35,287 bases of DNA from SAR202 cluster bacterium (GTDB lineage: Bacteria > Chloroflexota > Dehalococcoidia > Lucifugimonadales > UBA6952), in assembly GCA_009392515.1 (NCBI GenBank), contig VFGE01000013.1:1-35287 (forward strand), given 5' to 3'. How positions within the stretch are numbered: position 1 is the first letter of the stretch; every line of letters begins with the position of its first letter. The translations under genes and the position numbers were made by a program. Under the pieces are notes generated by a model. The model was not told where the DNA came from and made no database searches. It saw only the letters and a program-made list of their open reading frames with translations. Shown here piece after piece: positions 11,795-17,573 of this stretch.

Positions 11795-13663
11795 ATGTTT
11801 GTTATAGGTACAGCAGGACATATAGATCATGGTAAATCTGCTTTAGTTGAAAAGATAACTGGTACAGACCCTGATAGATTGTTAGAGGAAAAAAAAAGAG
11901 GAATGACTATTGATTTAGGTTTTGCTTGGTTTGTTCTTCCGATCGGTCAAGAAGTTAGTATAATTGATGTACCAGGTCACGAGAAATTCATAAAAAACAT
12001 GATAACAGGTGTTGGCGGTATAGATATGGCATTACTGGTAATTGCTGCAGATGAAGGAATAATGCCTCAAACTATAGAGCATTTTCAAATTATCAACCTA
12101 TTAGAAATAAAATCTCTTATAGTCGCAATTACAAAGAAAGATTTAGTAGATTTAGAATGGATCAATTTAATCAAAGAAGAAATCAAGGAGCTATTAAAAA
12201 AATCACCATACTTGAGTTCTCCAATTATTGAGCTTTCTTCTCATACTGGTGTCGGTGTTGATGATTTAATAGCTCACATAGAAAAAGAAGCCTCGATAAT
12301 TAATTTTAATAAAACTACAAATAAGCCAAGATTGGCAATAGATAGATCGTTTGTGGTTAGTGGTTTTGGAAGTGTTGTAACTGGGACACTAATAGAAGGA
12401 TCTTTAGATATTGGACAAGAAGTTGAATTGATTAAATCAAATCAAATTGGTAGAATTCGTGGCTTACATATACATAATAAGCCTTATGATCATGCTGAGC
12501 CTGGGAATCGTGTTGCGGTTAATATCTCAGGAATTTCTCATCAAAATATTTTGCGTGGAGATACTCTAACTACTCCAAATTGGTTATCAGTAACACGAGC
12601 AGTAGATGTGCAAATTAAATTGGTACCTAATACAAAAAAGATATTGAAACATAATTCCTCTGTTATGTTTTACACTGGTGCTTCAGAATCTATGGTTAAA
12701 GTTAGATTACTTACATCGAATGAAATGGTTTCTGGAGATGTAGGGTTAGCTCAATTTGTATTGGAGGATATGCTTCCATGTGTATCTGGTGATCGATTTA
12801 TAATTAGAACATCAAACGAGACCATTGGTGGAGGTATTATTATAGAAACAGATGTAAATCGGCATAAACGGAGTGATATAAGTATTATCGAACGTTTGTA
12901 TACCTTGTCGGAAGGGAAACCACTGGAGATTATTCAACAACATATTACTGATTCCAAAATCAGTAATATTGATTTACTAACATCTTTAACTAATTTTTCT
13001 ACAGAAGAAATCATATCTCTTATTCATAAATTAATCCAAGACAAACAAATCATTTTATTAGATTCAAAAAATAACAGTGAAATCAATAGTTTGATTTCTA
13101 CTACTTATTATGAATACATAAAAACTCGCACTATAAACTATTTAGAGAAATATCATTTAGATTTTCCATATCGTAAAGGTTGCACTATTAATGATTTGAA
13201 TAGAATATTAATGATACCTGATTCTTATTTACCATTGATTATTAACCAACTTATAGACGATGAGATATTAAAAATAACTAATCAGCTTATATCTTTAATA
13301 CAATTTTCAATTGATATAAGCGAAAATGATAATTTGTTGCTTAATGAATATTTAGAAATGGCTAAGTCTGAATTATTTATCAACATTAATTCTGTATTTA
13401 AGAATAGAGAATTAGTTAACTTAATGATACAAGAGGCATATTTGATAAAAATTGACGCAGAAATTGTAATGAGTTCTCAAGAGTACAACACAATGGTTAA
13501 TAAAATAATTGAATTGATGAAAAACAATCAAGATGTTAAGGTTGCTGAAGTGAGAGATTATCTTGGTATTAGCAGGAAAAATGCTTTACTCATTTTAGAG
13601 CATTTAGATGAACAAAAACTAACTAAGAGAAATGGAGATTTTAGATCTCTGAATATTAAATAG
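11795..13663 (+). CDS. selB: Selenocysteine-specific translation elongation factor SelB
   Basis: SelB is the GTPase that brings selenocysteinyl-tRNA to in-frame UGA codons marked by a SECIS hairpin. The N-terminal GTPase domain has GHIDHGKS (8-15), TIDLGFAW (the SelB-type switch region), DVPGH (58-62) and TKKD for guanine recognition. EF-Tu-like domains II and III follow, with RSFVVSGFGSVVTGTL and the late GDRFIIRT...TIGGGIII segment. The rest (about 350-622) is the winged-helix repeat region that binds SECIS RNA, ending in EVRDYLGISRKNALLILEHLDEQ. Full length of 622 is normal, so the gene looks functional. selA, selD and the selenocysteine tRNA are not in this window. The GHIDHGKS-TIDLGFAW combination excludes EF-Tu and IF2. 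Confidence 0.95.
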   Translation: MFVIGTAGHIDHGKSALVEKITGTDPDRLLEEKKRGMTIDLGFAWFVLPIGQEVSIIDVPGHEKFIKNMITGVGGIDMALLVIAADEGIMPQTIEHFQIINLLEIKSLIVAITKKDLVDLEWINLIKEEIKELLKKSPYLSSPIIELSSHTGVGVDDLIAHIEKEASIINFNKTTNKPRLAIDRSFVVSGFGSVVTGTLIEGSLDIGQEVELIKSNQIGRIRGLHIHNKPYDHAEPGNRVAVNISGISHQNILRGDTLTTPNWLSVTRAVDVQIKLVPNTKKILKHNSSVMFYTGASESMVKVRLLTSNEMVSGDVGLAQFVLEDMLPCVSGDRFIIRTSNETIGGGIIIETDVNRHKRSDISIIERLYTLSEGKPLEIIQQHITDSKISNIDLLTSLTNFSTEEIISLIHKLIQDKQIILLDSKNNSEINSLISTTYYEYIKTRTINYLEKYHLDFPYRKGCTINDLNRILMIPDSYLPLIINQLIDDEILKITNQLISLIQFSIDISENDNLLLNEYLEMAKSELFININSVFKNRELVNLMIQEAYLIKIDAEIVMSSQEYNTMVNKIIELMKNNQDVKVAEVRDYLGISRKNALLILEHLDEQKLTKRNGDFRSLNIK

Positions 13664-14118: not shown

Positions 14119-15294
14119 ATGCCTTTTGATTTTGAGCTAATAGCAGAAAAACTACAAAAAGCGGTTAAATTAATTAAATCGGATGATAACTTATATTATC
14201 AAAGAGTTGATAAATTAATTGATTTTTATAAAAAATCTGACCCGTATTTGATAGAGCACAAACGGAATGAAGGTAACCATAAATGGTTAGCTGCAAAGTT
14301 TTTAGATAATAAGATTACAACTTATAGCCCAAAACAATTACCTAAAGATTATCGAGTGATTGCTGTTGATGGGTCCCATATTGATGTCGATAGACATAGC
14401 CCTATTAAATGTGTTGTTTTGAACATTGGCACTGTAATATTTACATATGGATCTAATCCAAGTGCAATTTTAAATAGTTCTCCGTTAACCTATATAGGAG
14501 AAGCGGAACTAAATATATTTGACAGTAACTCAACTAGTAGGTCTCCATTACAGGGAAATTTAATGGGTGTTAAGCGGGCAGTTATGGAACTTACTTTTCT
14601 TGCAGATACCCTAGAGAATTATGCTGACGGTATTCCTACTTTAGCTTTGGTGGATGGATCATTAATTTTATGGTCAATTCTTGGTGAACAAGAGTATGTT
14701 ATAGATCAATTACTACAAAAGGAATTTTTAGAACAATTACATAGAATTAAAAAATTATCTGATAAAGGAATTATTTTGGCGTCATATCTCAGTTATCCTG
14801 ACACATCGGATGTCATTAACTCGCTGAGAATTTGTCTATGTAATGAATACTGTTCAAATAATAATCCTTGTAAAGAAGGCTGTAGTTTAGTTTCGGGAAT
14901 TAGAGACAGAGATATTTTTATTAAATACCTTCCTAATACTGCTAGATCTTCATTGTTTCAAAGTACTTCAAATGTTATTGAAAAATACTACAAAGAAGAA
15001 TATGGAATTAATTTTTATTACCTGAATATATTTAATGAGATAGCCAGAATAGAACTCCCAAATTGGACAGCAAATAACCCAGATTTATTAGAATTAAGTC
15101 ATTCTTTGATTATTGATCAATGTAATAAAGGACTTGGCTATCCAGTGTCAATTATGGAGGCTCATGAACAGGCTGTTATTAATACAACTGATAGAGAGAA
15201 TTTTAAAATGCTATTAGATCGTTTATTGGCTCAACAAGGGATAAATTATAATACATCACAAAAAGATCGCTCAAAAAAATATAGATGGGTTTAA
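14119..15294 (+). CDS. NurA-domain nuclease-like protein
   Basis: NurA is a manganese-dependent nuclease that partners the hexameric translocase HerA in DNA end resection. The 391-residue protein has the three family landmarks in order. The first is RVIAVDGSHIDVDRH with Asp84. The second is LALVDGSLILW with Asp179. The third is the C-terminal GYPVSIMEAHEQAVI with His349, followed by an arginine-rich end. A five-cysteine cluster (Cys239, 241, 245, 251, 255) lies between the second and third landmarks and could hold a metal or iron-sulfur cluster. A short leading helical region precedes the domain. A HAS-barrel-like gene and a HerA-like ATPase gene follow, which strongly supports the call. It is not the archaeal form; catalytic competence is inferred from the conserved acidic residues. 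Confidence 0.85.
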   Translation: MPFDFELIAEKLQKAVKLIKSDDNLYYQRVDKLIDFYKKSDPYLIEHKRNEGNHKWLAAKFLDNKITTYSPKQLPKDYRVIAVDGSHIDVDRHSPIKCVVLNIGTVIFTYGSNPSAILNSSPLTYIGEAELNIFDSNSTSRSPLQGNLMGVKRAVMELTFLADTLENYADGIPTLALVDGSLILWSILGEQEYVIDQLLQKEFLEQLHRIKKLSDKGIILASYLSYPDTSDVINSLRICLCNEYCSNNNPCKEGCSLVSGIRDRDIFIKYLPNTARSSLFQSTSNVIEKYYKEEYGINFYYLNIFNEIARIELPNWTANNPDLLELSHSLIIDQCNKGLGYPVSIMEAHEQAVINTTDRENFKMLLDRLLAQQGINYNTSQKDRSKKYRWV

Positions 15295-15298
15295 TTTA

Positions 15299-15326
15299 TT
15301 GATATAATGAAATCATTCAATATAAT
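15299..15326 (+). promoter_or_regulatory. Candidate internal promoter before the HAS-barrel/HerA genes
   Basis: TTGATA (15299-15304) and a perfect TATAAT (15321-15326) are spaced by 16 bases between the NurA-like gene and the next gene. A second TATAAT lies at 15303-15308. With the downstream box, transcription would begin only a few bases before the ATG at 15338, almost leaderless; the upstream box would leave a normal leader but has a poor -35. Confidence 0.35.
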
Positions 15327-15337
15327 TGAGAGATCAA

Positions 15338-15943
15338 ATGAAAAATCAAAATACCATTGCAGAAATTATTGAATCATCTACTAAAAGTGTAATTGTTCAG
15401 TGCTATGAACTTTATCAAGCTCCTAAATTAGGAACTTTGATAAAAACTCAAGATGATCCGTCAATAATTGGCGTAGTATATAATGTGTTTACTGAACCAT
15501 TAGACCCTTCTAGAAGACCAATTGCTAGAGGGCCTTTTCAAAACGAACCAGAAAAGCTGTATGAAGATAATCCTCATTTATCATTACTTTTTCGGACTCA
15601 AGCAGAAATATTTATTCTGGGGCATATAGATCGATTAAAAAGTTATAAATATGAATTACCATTACTTCCAGCAAAAATACATACAGGGATATCTTTATTG
15701 GATGAGAAAGAAATACTGGCATTTACATCTTCAAGAACATTTATGGAATTATTGCTTGAGGGTATAGATGTTATAACAGATGAAATTTTTTCTATATCAA
15801 TTAGAAGGATATCCGTGTGTCATTTAGATCCAGAAAAATTTTTACATGATATAGGAATAGATGTAGCAAAGAATTTCCCACATGATCAACAAAAATTGAT
15901 TTCTTTACTCAGAAAATTAGGTAGAGGTCCAATAAATGAGTAA
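15338..15943 (+). CDS. HAS-barrel-like accessory protein of the NurA/HerA cluster
   Basis: I do not recognise this 201-residue protein by name. It is soluble, with no signal or membrane segment. Its N-terminal third (APKLGTLIKTQ, PSIIGVVYNVF, then a RRPIARG loop) looks like the small beta-barrel (HAS barrel) found at the N-terminus of HerA and ATP synthases. The middle part keeps RTQAEIFILGHID and ELPLLPAKIHTG, and the C-terminus is helical (FPHDQQKLISLLRKLGRG). I chose the ATG at 15338, preceded by GAGAG, over a TTG at 15326. It overlaps the HerA gene by eight bases, so the two are translationally coupled. The context suggests it is a structural adaptor between the NurA-like nuclease and the ATPase; this is inference. 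Confidence 0.7.
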   Translation: MKNQNTIAEIIESSTKSVIVQCYELYQAPKLGTLIKTQDDPSIIGVVYNVFTEPLDPSRRPIARGPFQNEPEKLYEDNPHLSLLFRTQAEIFILGHIDRLKSYKYELPLLPAKIHTGISLLDEKEILAFTSSRTFMELLLEGIDVITDEIFSISIRRISVCHLDPEKFLHDIGIDVAKNFPHDQQKLISLLRKLGRGPINE

Positions 15944-17573
15944 TGTAGAAGATAACCAAAAAATAGGAACTATAGTAGGAGGAGCTTTATCTTCAGGATT
16001 GGAAGTAAGATTAGATTCTGACTATTCTGTTGAAAATTTATATGTTGGTGATGGAATTACTATTGAGGGGCGAGAAAAGCGATATTTTGGTATTATTTCC
16101 GATATGATGTTGCAGTCCTCAGATTCATCTATTCGTTCTTTGCCTCCTAACAGTTCTGATTTTTTTGTAACTTCAATCCTGTCAGGAACTAGCGCATTCA
16201 CTATTCTTAAAATTAGCTTACAATTGGCAGTATCTTTGGATACAAATATTGATGAATTCGATAAACTCAGTTTAGATAACATAAGTTTTGGTCCGGCAAC
16301 CACACTTCCTCCACATTTTTCTCCTGTCTATAGAGCTACAAGTAAAGACTACACAGAGATTTTTGGTTCTGAAGATGAAAATCATGGTTGGATAGGTACT
16401 CCCAAAGGTCGTGATGCAGAGGTTAAAATTAATCTTGATTTAGAACAATTGATAAAACGATCAAATGGTGTTTTTGGCAAAACTGGCACAGGTAAAACTT
16501 TCTTAACACGGGTTTTATTATCAGAAATCATCAAAAAAGATTTAGGCGTTAATCTCATATTTGATATGCATAGGGATTATAGTGATTCTGTAAATGATGA
16601 ATCTGGCAAAAAAATAAATAGTTTGAAGCAGATATTTCCTTCAAAAGTGGAGGTGATGTCCCTTGGAAAATCTCTTAATAAAGGTCAAGTACGACCAGAT
16701 GCTGAAATTATGGTTTCTTATAATGATCTAGAAGTTCAAGATATTGAGATATTGTCAGAGACTTTAAATTTAACTTCCGCAGGACTACTTGCCGCACATG
16801 CATTAGATAGAACTTACGGTGATAAATGGCTTGGTTTATTTTTAAATATGGAACCTAGTGAAGATAAGGAAAATCCCAATAGTTTGAGTGCTGCGGCAGA
16901 ACGTACTGGACAGTTATATACTGTTTTACACACTTTGTGGAGAAGATTAGAAATTCTTAAAAAGTTTGAGTTTTTGCAACAAAATCCTGCAGAAGAATCT
17001 ATAAAAAGAATATTTACATCATTAGAAAGAGGCAAACATGTAATCCTTGACTTTGGTACACATCAAAGCAATGAAACCGCGTACATATTAGTTACTAGTT
17101 TGATCACCCGGAGAATTTATGAAAGATGGGCAGAACAAGACAATCAATTAGTAATTGCCATTGAGGAAGCTCATAAGTTTTTAAATTCTGAAGTGGCTAG
17201 CCAAACTATTTTTGGAACAATCGCTCGCGAAATGAGAAAATGGAAAGTAACTTTGCTTGTTGTTGATCAGAGGCCGAGTGGAATTGATGCAGAAGTTCTT
17301 AGTCAATTGGGAACAAAATTCATTCATCAATTAGAAGATAATAGAGATATAGACTCTATATTAGCAGGATCTTCTAGAGATTTAAGAAGCGTTGTTTCTA
17401 CTCTGGCTCCAAAACAACAAGCACTTGTTATAGGGCATTCTTTACCTATGCCTGTAGTCATAGATGTCAGATCTAATGACACTTTGGCAAATTTTATCAA
17501 TCCTGATAAAACACCTAATGAAATAACAAATATTGAAAGGGATAATGATGATTTATTTGGTGAGAAAAAATAA
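15936..17573 (+). CDS. herA: HerA-like DNA translocase ATPase
   Basis: HerA is a FtsK/VirB4-related hexameric ATPase that pumps DNA and activates NurA. The 545-residue protein begins with a HAS-barrel region (KIGTIVGGALSSGLEVRLDSDY, then VGDGITIEG and YFGIISDM). It continues with the RecA-like core: Walker A GKTGTGKT at 181-188, NLIFDMHRDYSD soon after, and Walker B LVIAIEEAHKF with Glu410/Glu411. A sensor region (LLVVDQRPSGID) and the typical ending QLGTKFIHQLEDNRDIDSIL ... LAPKQQALVIGHSLPMPVVIDVR follow. A helical insertion sits between the Walker motifs. All motifs look intact. It follows the NurA-like and HAS-barrel genes. The symbol is by family resemblance. Confidence 0.9.
   Translation: MSNVEDNQKIGTIVGGALSSGLEVRLDSDYSVENLYVGDGITIEGREKRYFGIISDMMLQSSDSSIRSLPPNSSDFFVTSILSGTSAFTILKISLQLAVSLDTNIDEFDKLSLDNISFGPATTLPPHFSPVYRATSKDYTEIFGSEDENHGWIGTPKGRDAEVKINLDLEQLIKRSNGVFGKTGTGKTFLTRVLLSEIIKKDLGVNLIFDMHRDYSDSVNDESGKKINSLKQIFPSKVEVMSLGKSLNKGQVRPDAEIMVSYNDLEVQDIEILSETLNLTSAGLLAAHALDRTYGDKWLGLFLNMEPSEDKENPNSLSAAAERTGQLYTVLHTLWRRLEILKKFEFLQQNPAEESIKRIFTSLERGKHVILDFGTHQSNETAYILVTSLITRRIYERWAEQDNQLVIAIEEAHKFLNSEVASQTIFGTIAREMRKWKVTLLVVDQRPSGIDAEVLSQLGTKFIHQLEDNRDIDSILAGSSRDLRSVVSTLAPKQQALVIGHSLPMPVVIDVRSNDTLANFINPDKTPNEITNIERDNDDLFGEKK

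Follow-up and report, generated by a model that had tools for sequence, protein, structure and literature searches.

Does a gene that stands between nurA and herA encode a further part of the NurA-HerA machine? We address this question for three adjacent genes on contig VFGE01000013.1 (GenBank assembly GCA_009392515.1) of a SAR202 cluster bacterium (Chloroflexota; Dehalococcoidia; Lucifugimonadales; UBA6952); the whole stretch analyzed, hereafter the window, comprises positions 1 to 35,287 of the forward strand (35,287 nucleotides). In the NurA-HerA machines described in the literature, HerA forms a six-subunit ring around the DNA, a pair of NurA subunits is seated on the HAS-barrel side of this ring, and HerA drives DNA into NurA (PMC9960219, PMC5715905, PMC12977600). 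The window probably encodes, on the chromosome, a NurA-HerA module for DNA-end processing in which all three components are obligate; the middle protein would most likely be its third subunit, perhaps one that bridges HerA and NurA. The case is strongest at the points where statistics, fold, and gene order concur.

Co-occurrence of the Middle Gene with herA and nurA

All three open reading frames are real and intact, and the trio recurs in dozens of genomes, which argues against a chance arrangement. The three-gene module proposed in a first-pass annotation, made from the letters of the window alone, is thereby upheld, with Pfam matches to NurA and DUF87. Among 59 relatives, the middle gene was found in 48, HerA in exactly those 48, and NurA in those 48 and one more; the 11 relatives lacking the middle gene are the same 11 that lack HerA, and they include same-family pairs (f6, f9, and f29). 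The module is single-copy, occurs in 27 of the 34 good-quality genomes, and its absences are partly clade-wise. Presence in close relatives had been set as a check on the first-pass annotation, and this distribution supports the housekeeping reading. One genome of the same order (G030, locus L294) has kept a nurA of the window's type (type A) but yielded neither a middle gene nor herA, and perhaps carries a decaying module.

The same pattern was seen in 301 Chloroflexota genomes, in which the middle gene is present in 112, the HerA subfamily of the window in 114, and both in 110 (Fisher p 1e-74, uncorrected for relatedness); NurA was found in 111 of the 112 genomes with the middle gene. Unlike the two-protein type of Deinococcus and Thermus, the module thus has a third conserved gene, present in 110 of the 114 genomes with this HerA. 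Four genomes with HerA gave no middle-gene match in the first search, and one of these (G090) proved to have one after all, in diverged form and immediately ahead of herA. In 67 of the 110 genomes with both genes, no more than 3 kb separates the middle gene from herA; in the other 43 the distance exceeds 3 kb, reaching megabases on one contig, or the two genes fall on separate contigs, indicating that their co-occurrence is not just linkage. In about 34 of these 43 (counted by eye), the middle gene lies beside nurA instead, and a gene that travels with either nurA or herA fits a component touching both.

An even draw of 194 genomes from the Cyanobacteria phylum gave the matching HerA in 14, and strong matches to the middle gene came from exactly these 14; a weak fifteenth middle match (G493, E-value 2e-4) comes without a matching HerA. 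NurA is present in 88 of the 194 genomes, so most cyanobacterial NurA copies occur without this HerA; most of the 14 with HerA have two NurA genes.

Fold of the Middle Protein

At threshold, the middle protein matched no family in Pfam, NCBIfam, PADLOC, or PHROGs. The Pfam HAS-barrel family (PF09378) left the window protein and all 23 of its type-B (see below) and cyanobacterial relatives unmatched, and gave sub-threshold matches in 8 of 30 relatives, with E no higher than 0.1 and 0.003 at best. An AlphaFold2 (AF2) model built from 30 aligned same-order sequences has a predicted local distance difference test score (pLDDT) of 92 and a predicted template modeling score of 0.87, and consists of a barrel (strands E6-13, E17-22, E34-37, E42-54, E85-97, and E117-120) followed by a C-terminal helical domain (H123-130, H133-141, H143-159, H165-179, and H184-194). 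Top Foldseek matches of the model are HerA chains (4d2i, E 6.8e-8), and VIA-align places the barrel on the N-terminal HAS domain of HerA with Z 13.2 (4d2i) and Z 12.5 (9c1m; root-mean-square deviation 2.4 over 105 residues); F1-ATPase barrels rank next, at Z of about 10. A profile comparison of the type-A middle family with HerA is in register and weak (E 0.012, probability 3.6%), and a sequence search of the PDB with the middle profile gave no significant match; because the profile comparison is weak, homology of the two barrels rests on structure and not on sequence. As modeled, then, the middle protein is a HAS barrel of the same fold as the NurA-docking domain of HerA, without the ATPase. 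The HAS-barrel-like character ascribed to it in the first-pass annotation holds in structural terms, the HAS domains of HerA being its best matches, whereas the Pfam HAS-barrel family offers sub-threshold matches only. The name HAS barrel reportedly goes back to Iyer et al. in 2004.

In its own AF2 model, HerA retains an entire barrel (strands E9-17, E21-26, E40-44, E48-61, and E87-100; helices H64-68 and H76-85), on which the Pfam HAS-barrel match is again sub-threshold (E 0.068). The middle protein would therefore be an added HAS-barrel subunit rather than a detached piece of HerA. Its residues 56-76 are among the most conserved parts of the protein, and the most acidic stretch of the family falls at 65-76. 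Judged from the overall alignment range, not residue by residue, and from published complexes (PMC12977600, PMC9960219), this segment may be the positional counterpart of the loop and helix by which HerA docks NurA. In T. kodakarensis, NurA is bound by the first HAS helices and the loops before them (PMC12977600), and in D. radiodurans basic NurA motifs are bound by three acidic HAS-barrel residues (PMC9960219). The most basic stretch of NurA, by charge profile, is its conserved C-terminal tail, around residues 380-391, which, set against the acidic loop and helix of the middle protein, hints at an interface.

A Second Lineage and the Association with mre11-rad50

Other Chloroflexota loci carry a different NurA and HerA (type B) with nurA and herA adjacent, and between these lies a diverged middle gene of about 200 residues. 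The idea that 70 NurA-bearing Chloroflexota genomes lack a middle gene was wrong where checked, as the type-B loci hold this diverged one; the check covered part of the 70, and at six loci (L063, L065, L069, L076, L077, and L082) NurA is adjoined by neither a middle gene nor HerA. Homology between the type-A and type-B middle families extends across 158 columns (hhalign E 4.8e-9), and the HerAs of the two types fall into two deep clades, so the pairing of middle protein and HerA is probably old. In a scan of 84,980 species, the type-B middle family was found in Chloroflexota, Cyanobacteria, and Acidobacteria, and all 16 cyanobacterial and acidobacterial carriers tested have a matching HerA (E of about 1e-210 to 1e-235, vs. 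1e-19 or weaker for paralogues). Metagenome-assembled genomes titled Rubrobacter or Proteobacteria (loci L171 and L080; L159 and L180) hold Chloroflexota-type copies, the HerA of L171 being identical to that of the Chloroflexota genome G339; these records are probably mislabeled. The type-B trio also occurs on three haloarchaeal plasmids, and a fourth plasmid has the middle gene with herA. PLSDB predicts a 'DES-1 beta-lactamase' that runs into the 3′ part of one haloarchaeal herA (L220:2710-2871); this is most likely a false call.

In 42 of the 57 distinct type-B loci with enough sequence, the gene immediately before nurA is of the Rad50 type, and an Mre11 gene precedes Rad50 in most of those loci that reach that far. 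Locus L066, for example, has the order mre11-rad50-nurA-middle-herA, with matches to archaeal NCBIfam models (Mre11 E 3e-31, Rad50 E 6e-70) that are below the equivalog cut-offs. The same order was found on three haloarchaeal plasmids (Halar_0185 to 0181, P0R32_RS17570 to 17550, and HYG81_RS45160 to 45180), where the middle gene is annotated 'hypothetical protein'. Among type-A relatives, five loci (L096, L111, L112, L115, and L289) have SbcD/SbcC-like genes after herA; in L289, from the order of the window, both follow directly, with weak matches. SbcD is also present elsewhere in the genome of the window (G000:C25), and among the 59 relatives it scored above cut-off in 46 of the 48 with the module vs. 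5 of the 11 without (p 2e-4, reflecting a few independent losses at most). The mre11-rad50 association in relatives points to DNA-break end processing and not to phage defense.

NurA, HerA, and Layout of the Locus

Lack of a NurA profile match had been named beforehand as a finding that would speak against the module; the window protein matches Pfam NurA (PF09376) at E 1.1e-21, with 78 bits vs. a cut-off of 21. The residues Asp84, Asp179, and His349 singled out in the first-pass annotation are conserved in relatives, and with the domain score and the metal-binding and catalytic residues in place, the protein belongs by sequence to the NurA family and is predicted to be a nuclease. HerA matches Pfam DUF87 (PF01935) at E 4.7e-26 (92.7 bits vs. 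a cut-off of 23.2), and its Walker A and B motifs are intact, as had been noted. Its AF2 model (pLDDT 84) is nearest in fold to 9x1m (E 1.2e-26), HerA in its complex with NurA from T. kodakarensis. Having both the ATPase core and the HAS barrel, the protein can be placed in the HerA family and is predicted to form a hexameric ring and to translocate double-stranded DNA. Coordinates are given in Table 1.

Table 1. Features of the nurA-middle-herA module, in window coordinates.
Feature	Position	Strand	Description and basis
nurA	14119-15294	+	391 amino acids, ATG start; predicted NurA-domain nuclease
NurA Asp84	14368-14370	+	Invariant (28 relatives aligned)
NurA Glu157	14587-14589	+	Invariant (28 relatives aligned)
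NurA Asp179	14653-14655	+	At least 90% conserved (28 relatives aligned)
NurA His349	15163-15165	+	At least 90% conserved (28 relatives aligned)
Middle gene	15338-15943	+	201 amino acids from ATG 15338; HAS-barrel protein (model), proposed third subunit
Middle protein HAS barrel, residues 5-120	15350-15697	+	Model; match to HerA N-terminus, Z 13.2
Middle protein conserved loop and acidic helix, residues 56-76 (DP, R, AxG, acidic stretch)	15503-15565	+	Conservation; charge profile, 97 sequences
Middle protein C-terminal helical domain, residues 123-194	15704-15919	+	Model; mostly inside the A-to-B profile alignment
Middle stop/herA start overlap	15936-15943	+	8 bases, ATGAGTAA
herA	15936-17573	+	545 amino acids, ATG start; predicted HerA-type hexameric DNA-translocase ATPase
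HerA N-terminal HAS barrel, residues 9-121	15960-16298	+	AF2 model
HerA Walker A GKTGTGKT, residues 181-188	16476-16499	+	Sequence; invariant or nearly so (37 relatives)
HerA Walker B LVIAIEEAH, residues 405-413	17148-17174	+	Sequence; E410 and E411 invariant or nearly so (37 relatives)

The eight-base overlap between the middle gene and herA, already reported in the first-pass annotation, suggests translational coupling. An in-frame TTG at 15326 lies 12 bases ahead of the middle-gene ATG, and either start is compatible with the lengths seen in relatives. The genes flanking the module look like ordinary housekeeping genes: Pfam identifies selB, an EamA transporter, and a cyclophilin, and by eye the translations include SecD/SecF-like export genes and a coproporphyrinogen oxidase-like gene. 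The selB-like gene, for a selenocysteine elongation factor, is located just upstream (11795-13663), and ARAGORN found no tRNA gene in the window. Among the window open reading frames, family searches recognized no mobile element or defense effector adjoining the module.

Discussion

In the machine that we propose, the HerA ring motor would pump double-stranded DNA to NurA, which would cut it, as the intact motifs of the window proteins suggest. The middle protein would join the HerA ring on its HAS-barrel face and help to form the seat of NurA there; it might alternate with the barrels of HerA, add a second tier, or touch Mre11-Rad50. The three proteins may act as one machine with the cell's Mre11-Rad50 (SbcD-SbcC). 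The archaeal HerA-NurA systems that work with Mre11-Rad50 (Sulfolobus, Pyrococcus, and Thermococcus) share NurA and a HerA ring motor with a HAS barrel, and their clustering with mre11-rad50 is matched in many relatives of the window module; in contrast to the latter, their published composition is HerA6-NurA2, and a further HAS-barrel subunit is not part of it (PMC12977600, PMC5715905). The NurA-HerA (HepA) of Deinococcus radiodurans and Thermus likewise has a bacterial NurA and a ring motor with a HAS barrel, an acidic patch of which binds NurA in D. radiodurans (PMC9960219), but consists of two proteins only. Compared with the HAS barrels of HerA and of the F1-ATPase subunits, whose fold it shares, the middle protein is free-standing, has a C-terminal helical domain of its own, lacks an ATPase, and falls below the Pfam cut-off. 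A third protein goes unmentioned in the structural and biochemical papers on HerA-NurA that we consulted, which describe two proteins at 6:2; an earlier mention in Iyer et al. (2004) or Constantinesco et al. (2004) is possible, and we claim no priority.

Several points weigh against a three-component machine. The binding of the middle protein, its place between motor and nuclease, and a role in break repair are what we infer, and the contact is the weakest point of the argument. The genomes counted are kin, so the p-values overstate independence, and two genomes (G078 and G281, both fragmented assemblies) have HerA with neither a middle gene nor NurA found. No mre11 or rad50 gene adjoins the window module; the first-pass annotation was right to say so of this copy, yet its remark understates the case, given L289 and the 42 of 57 type-B NurA genes that follow Rad50. 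The Deinococcus NurA-HerA works in vitro as two proteins (PMC9960219), and the Thermus nurA stop overlaps the start of hepA (herA), leaving no room for a gene between them (PMC5448004), which suggests that a third subunit is not universally needed. In addition, deleting nurA or herA in Deinococcus and Thermus has mild or even opposite effects on repair (reviewed in PMC9960219 and PMC7776575), which leaves the role of the entire machine in the cell under debate.

The middle protein could be a transiently bound regulator or loader that, for instance, helps to open or load the ring or limits the nuclease, rather than a structural subunit: its presence alongside HerA in genomes where the two genes are unlinked would be expected of a dedicated helper no less than of a subunit, and two-protein HerA-NurA of other lineages is active (PMC9960219, PMC12977600). 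We regard this as unlikely, as the middle protein shares its fold with the domain by which HerA builds its ring and docks NurA, and its tight genomic coupling to herA or nurA, seen in the eight-base overlap, suggests stoichiometric expression. What the module does to DNA ends is a separate matter. That it mainly degrades double-stranded ends or acts at stalled forks, instead of making recombinogenic 3′ tails, is unlikely in our estimation. In its favor, T. kodakarensis HerA-NurA cuts both strands even with long overhangs (PMC12977600) and the bacterial deletion phenotypes are those cited above (PMC9960219, PMC7776575); against it, D. radiodurans NurA-HerA is reported to leave a 3′ tail (PMC9960219); the association with mre11-rad50 genes in relatives fits either outcome.

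Phage defense of the HerA-effector kind is very improbable, even though such pairs are well known from solved structures and share with the window a HerA-fold ATPase paired with another enzyme, as in SIR2-HerA and DUF4297-HerA. Defense-type HerA models of PADLOC and NCBIfam do match the window HerA at E of about 1e-24 to 1e-31 (PADLOC lowest, 2.6e-31), so that automated pipelines may call a repair ATPase phage defense, but the score for the NCBIfam antiphage HerA equivalog (NF042943) is 85 bits vs. a cut-off of 800. Moreover, the partner is NurA, no effector family was found next to the module (in line with the first-pass annotation, which saw no defense nuclease gene there), and the neighbors are housekeeping genes around a single-copy, order-wide module with mre11-rad50 operons in relatives. 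Searches with the window HerA and middle protein (tblastn) gave no plasmid match, the type-B middle protein gave no phage match, and viral contigs searched with HerA gave four weak ATPase-core matches only. The preference of the first-pass annotation for housekeeping repair is thus borne out by the mre11-rad50 operons and the missing effector. Even less credible is a pump for DNA transfer or uptake, modeled on Thermus transjugation, in which TdtA, a HerA-like ATPase, works with a NurA homologue (PMC5365140): TdtA is encoded on an integrative element that also carries genes for an integrase and a restriction enzyme; the window module adjoins none of these and is conserved widely across its order.

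The wide bacterial spread of NurA and HerA has been noted before, and the link between Mre11-Rad50 and HerA-NurA has been called unclear (PMC8708640). A bolder and rather doubtful extension of the three-component module is that the middle protein supplies this link in bacteria and some haloarchaea, adding a second HAS-barrel tier to the HerA ring, so that recognizing a break and processing it over long distances would fall to one five-protein machine. Complete mre11-rad50-nurA-middle-herA clusters do occur on haloarchaeal plasmids, a setting in which nurA and herA had been described as not apparent (PMC12977600). If the middle protein is indeed a third subunit, reconstitutions modeled on Deinococcus would lack a part in many bacteria, and this HAS-barrel protein would offer a direct test of the link between Mre11-Rad50 and HerA-NurA.

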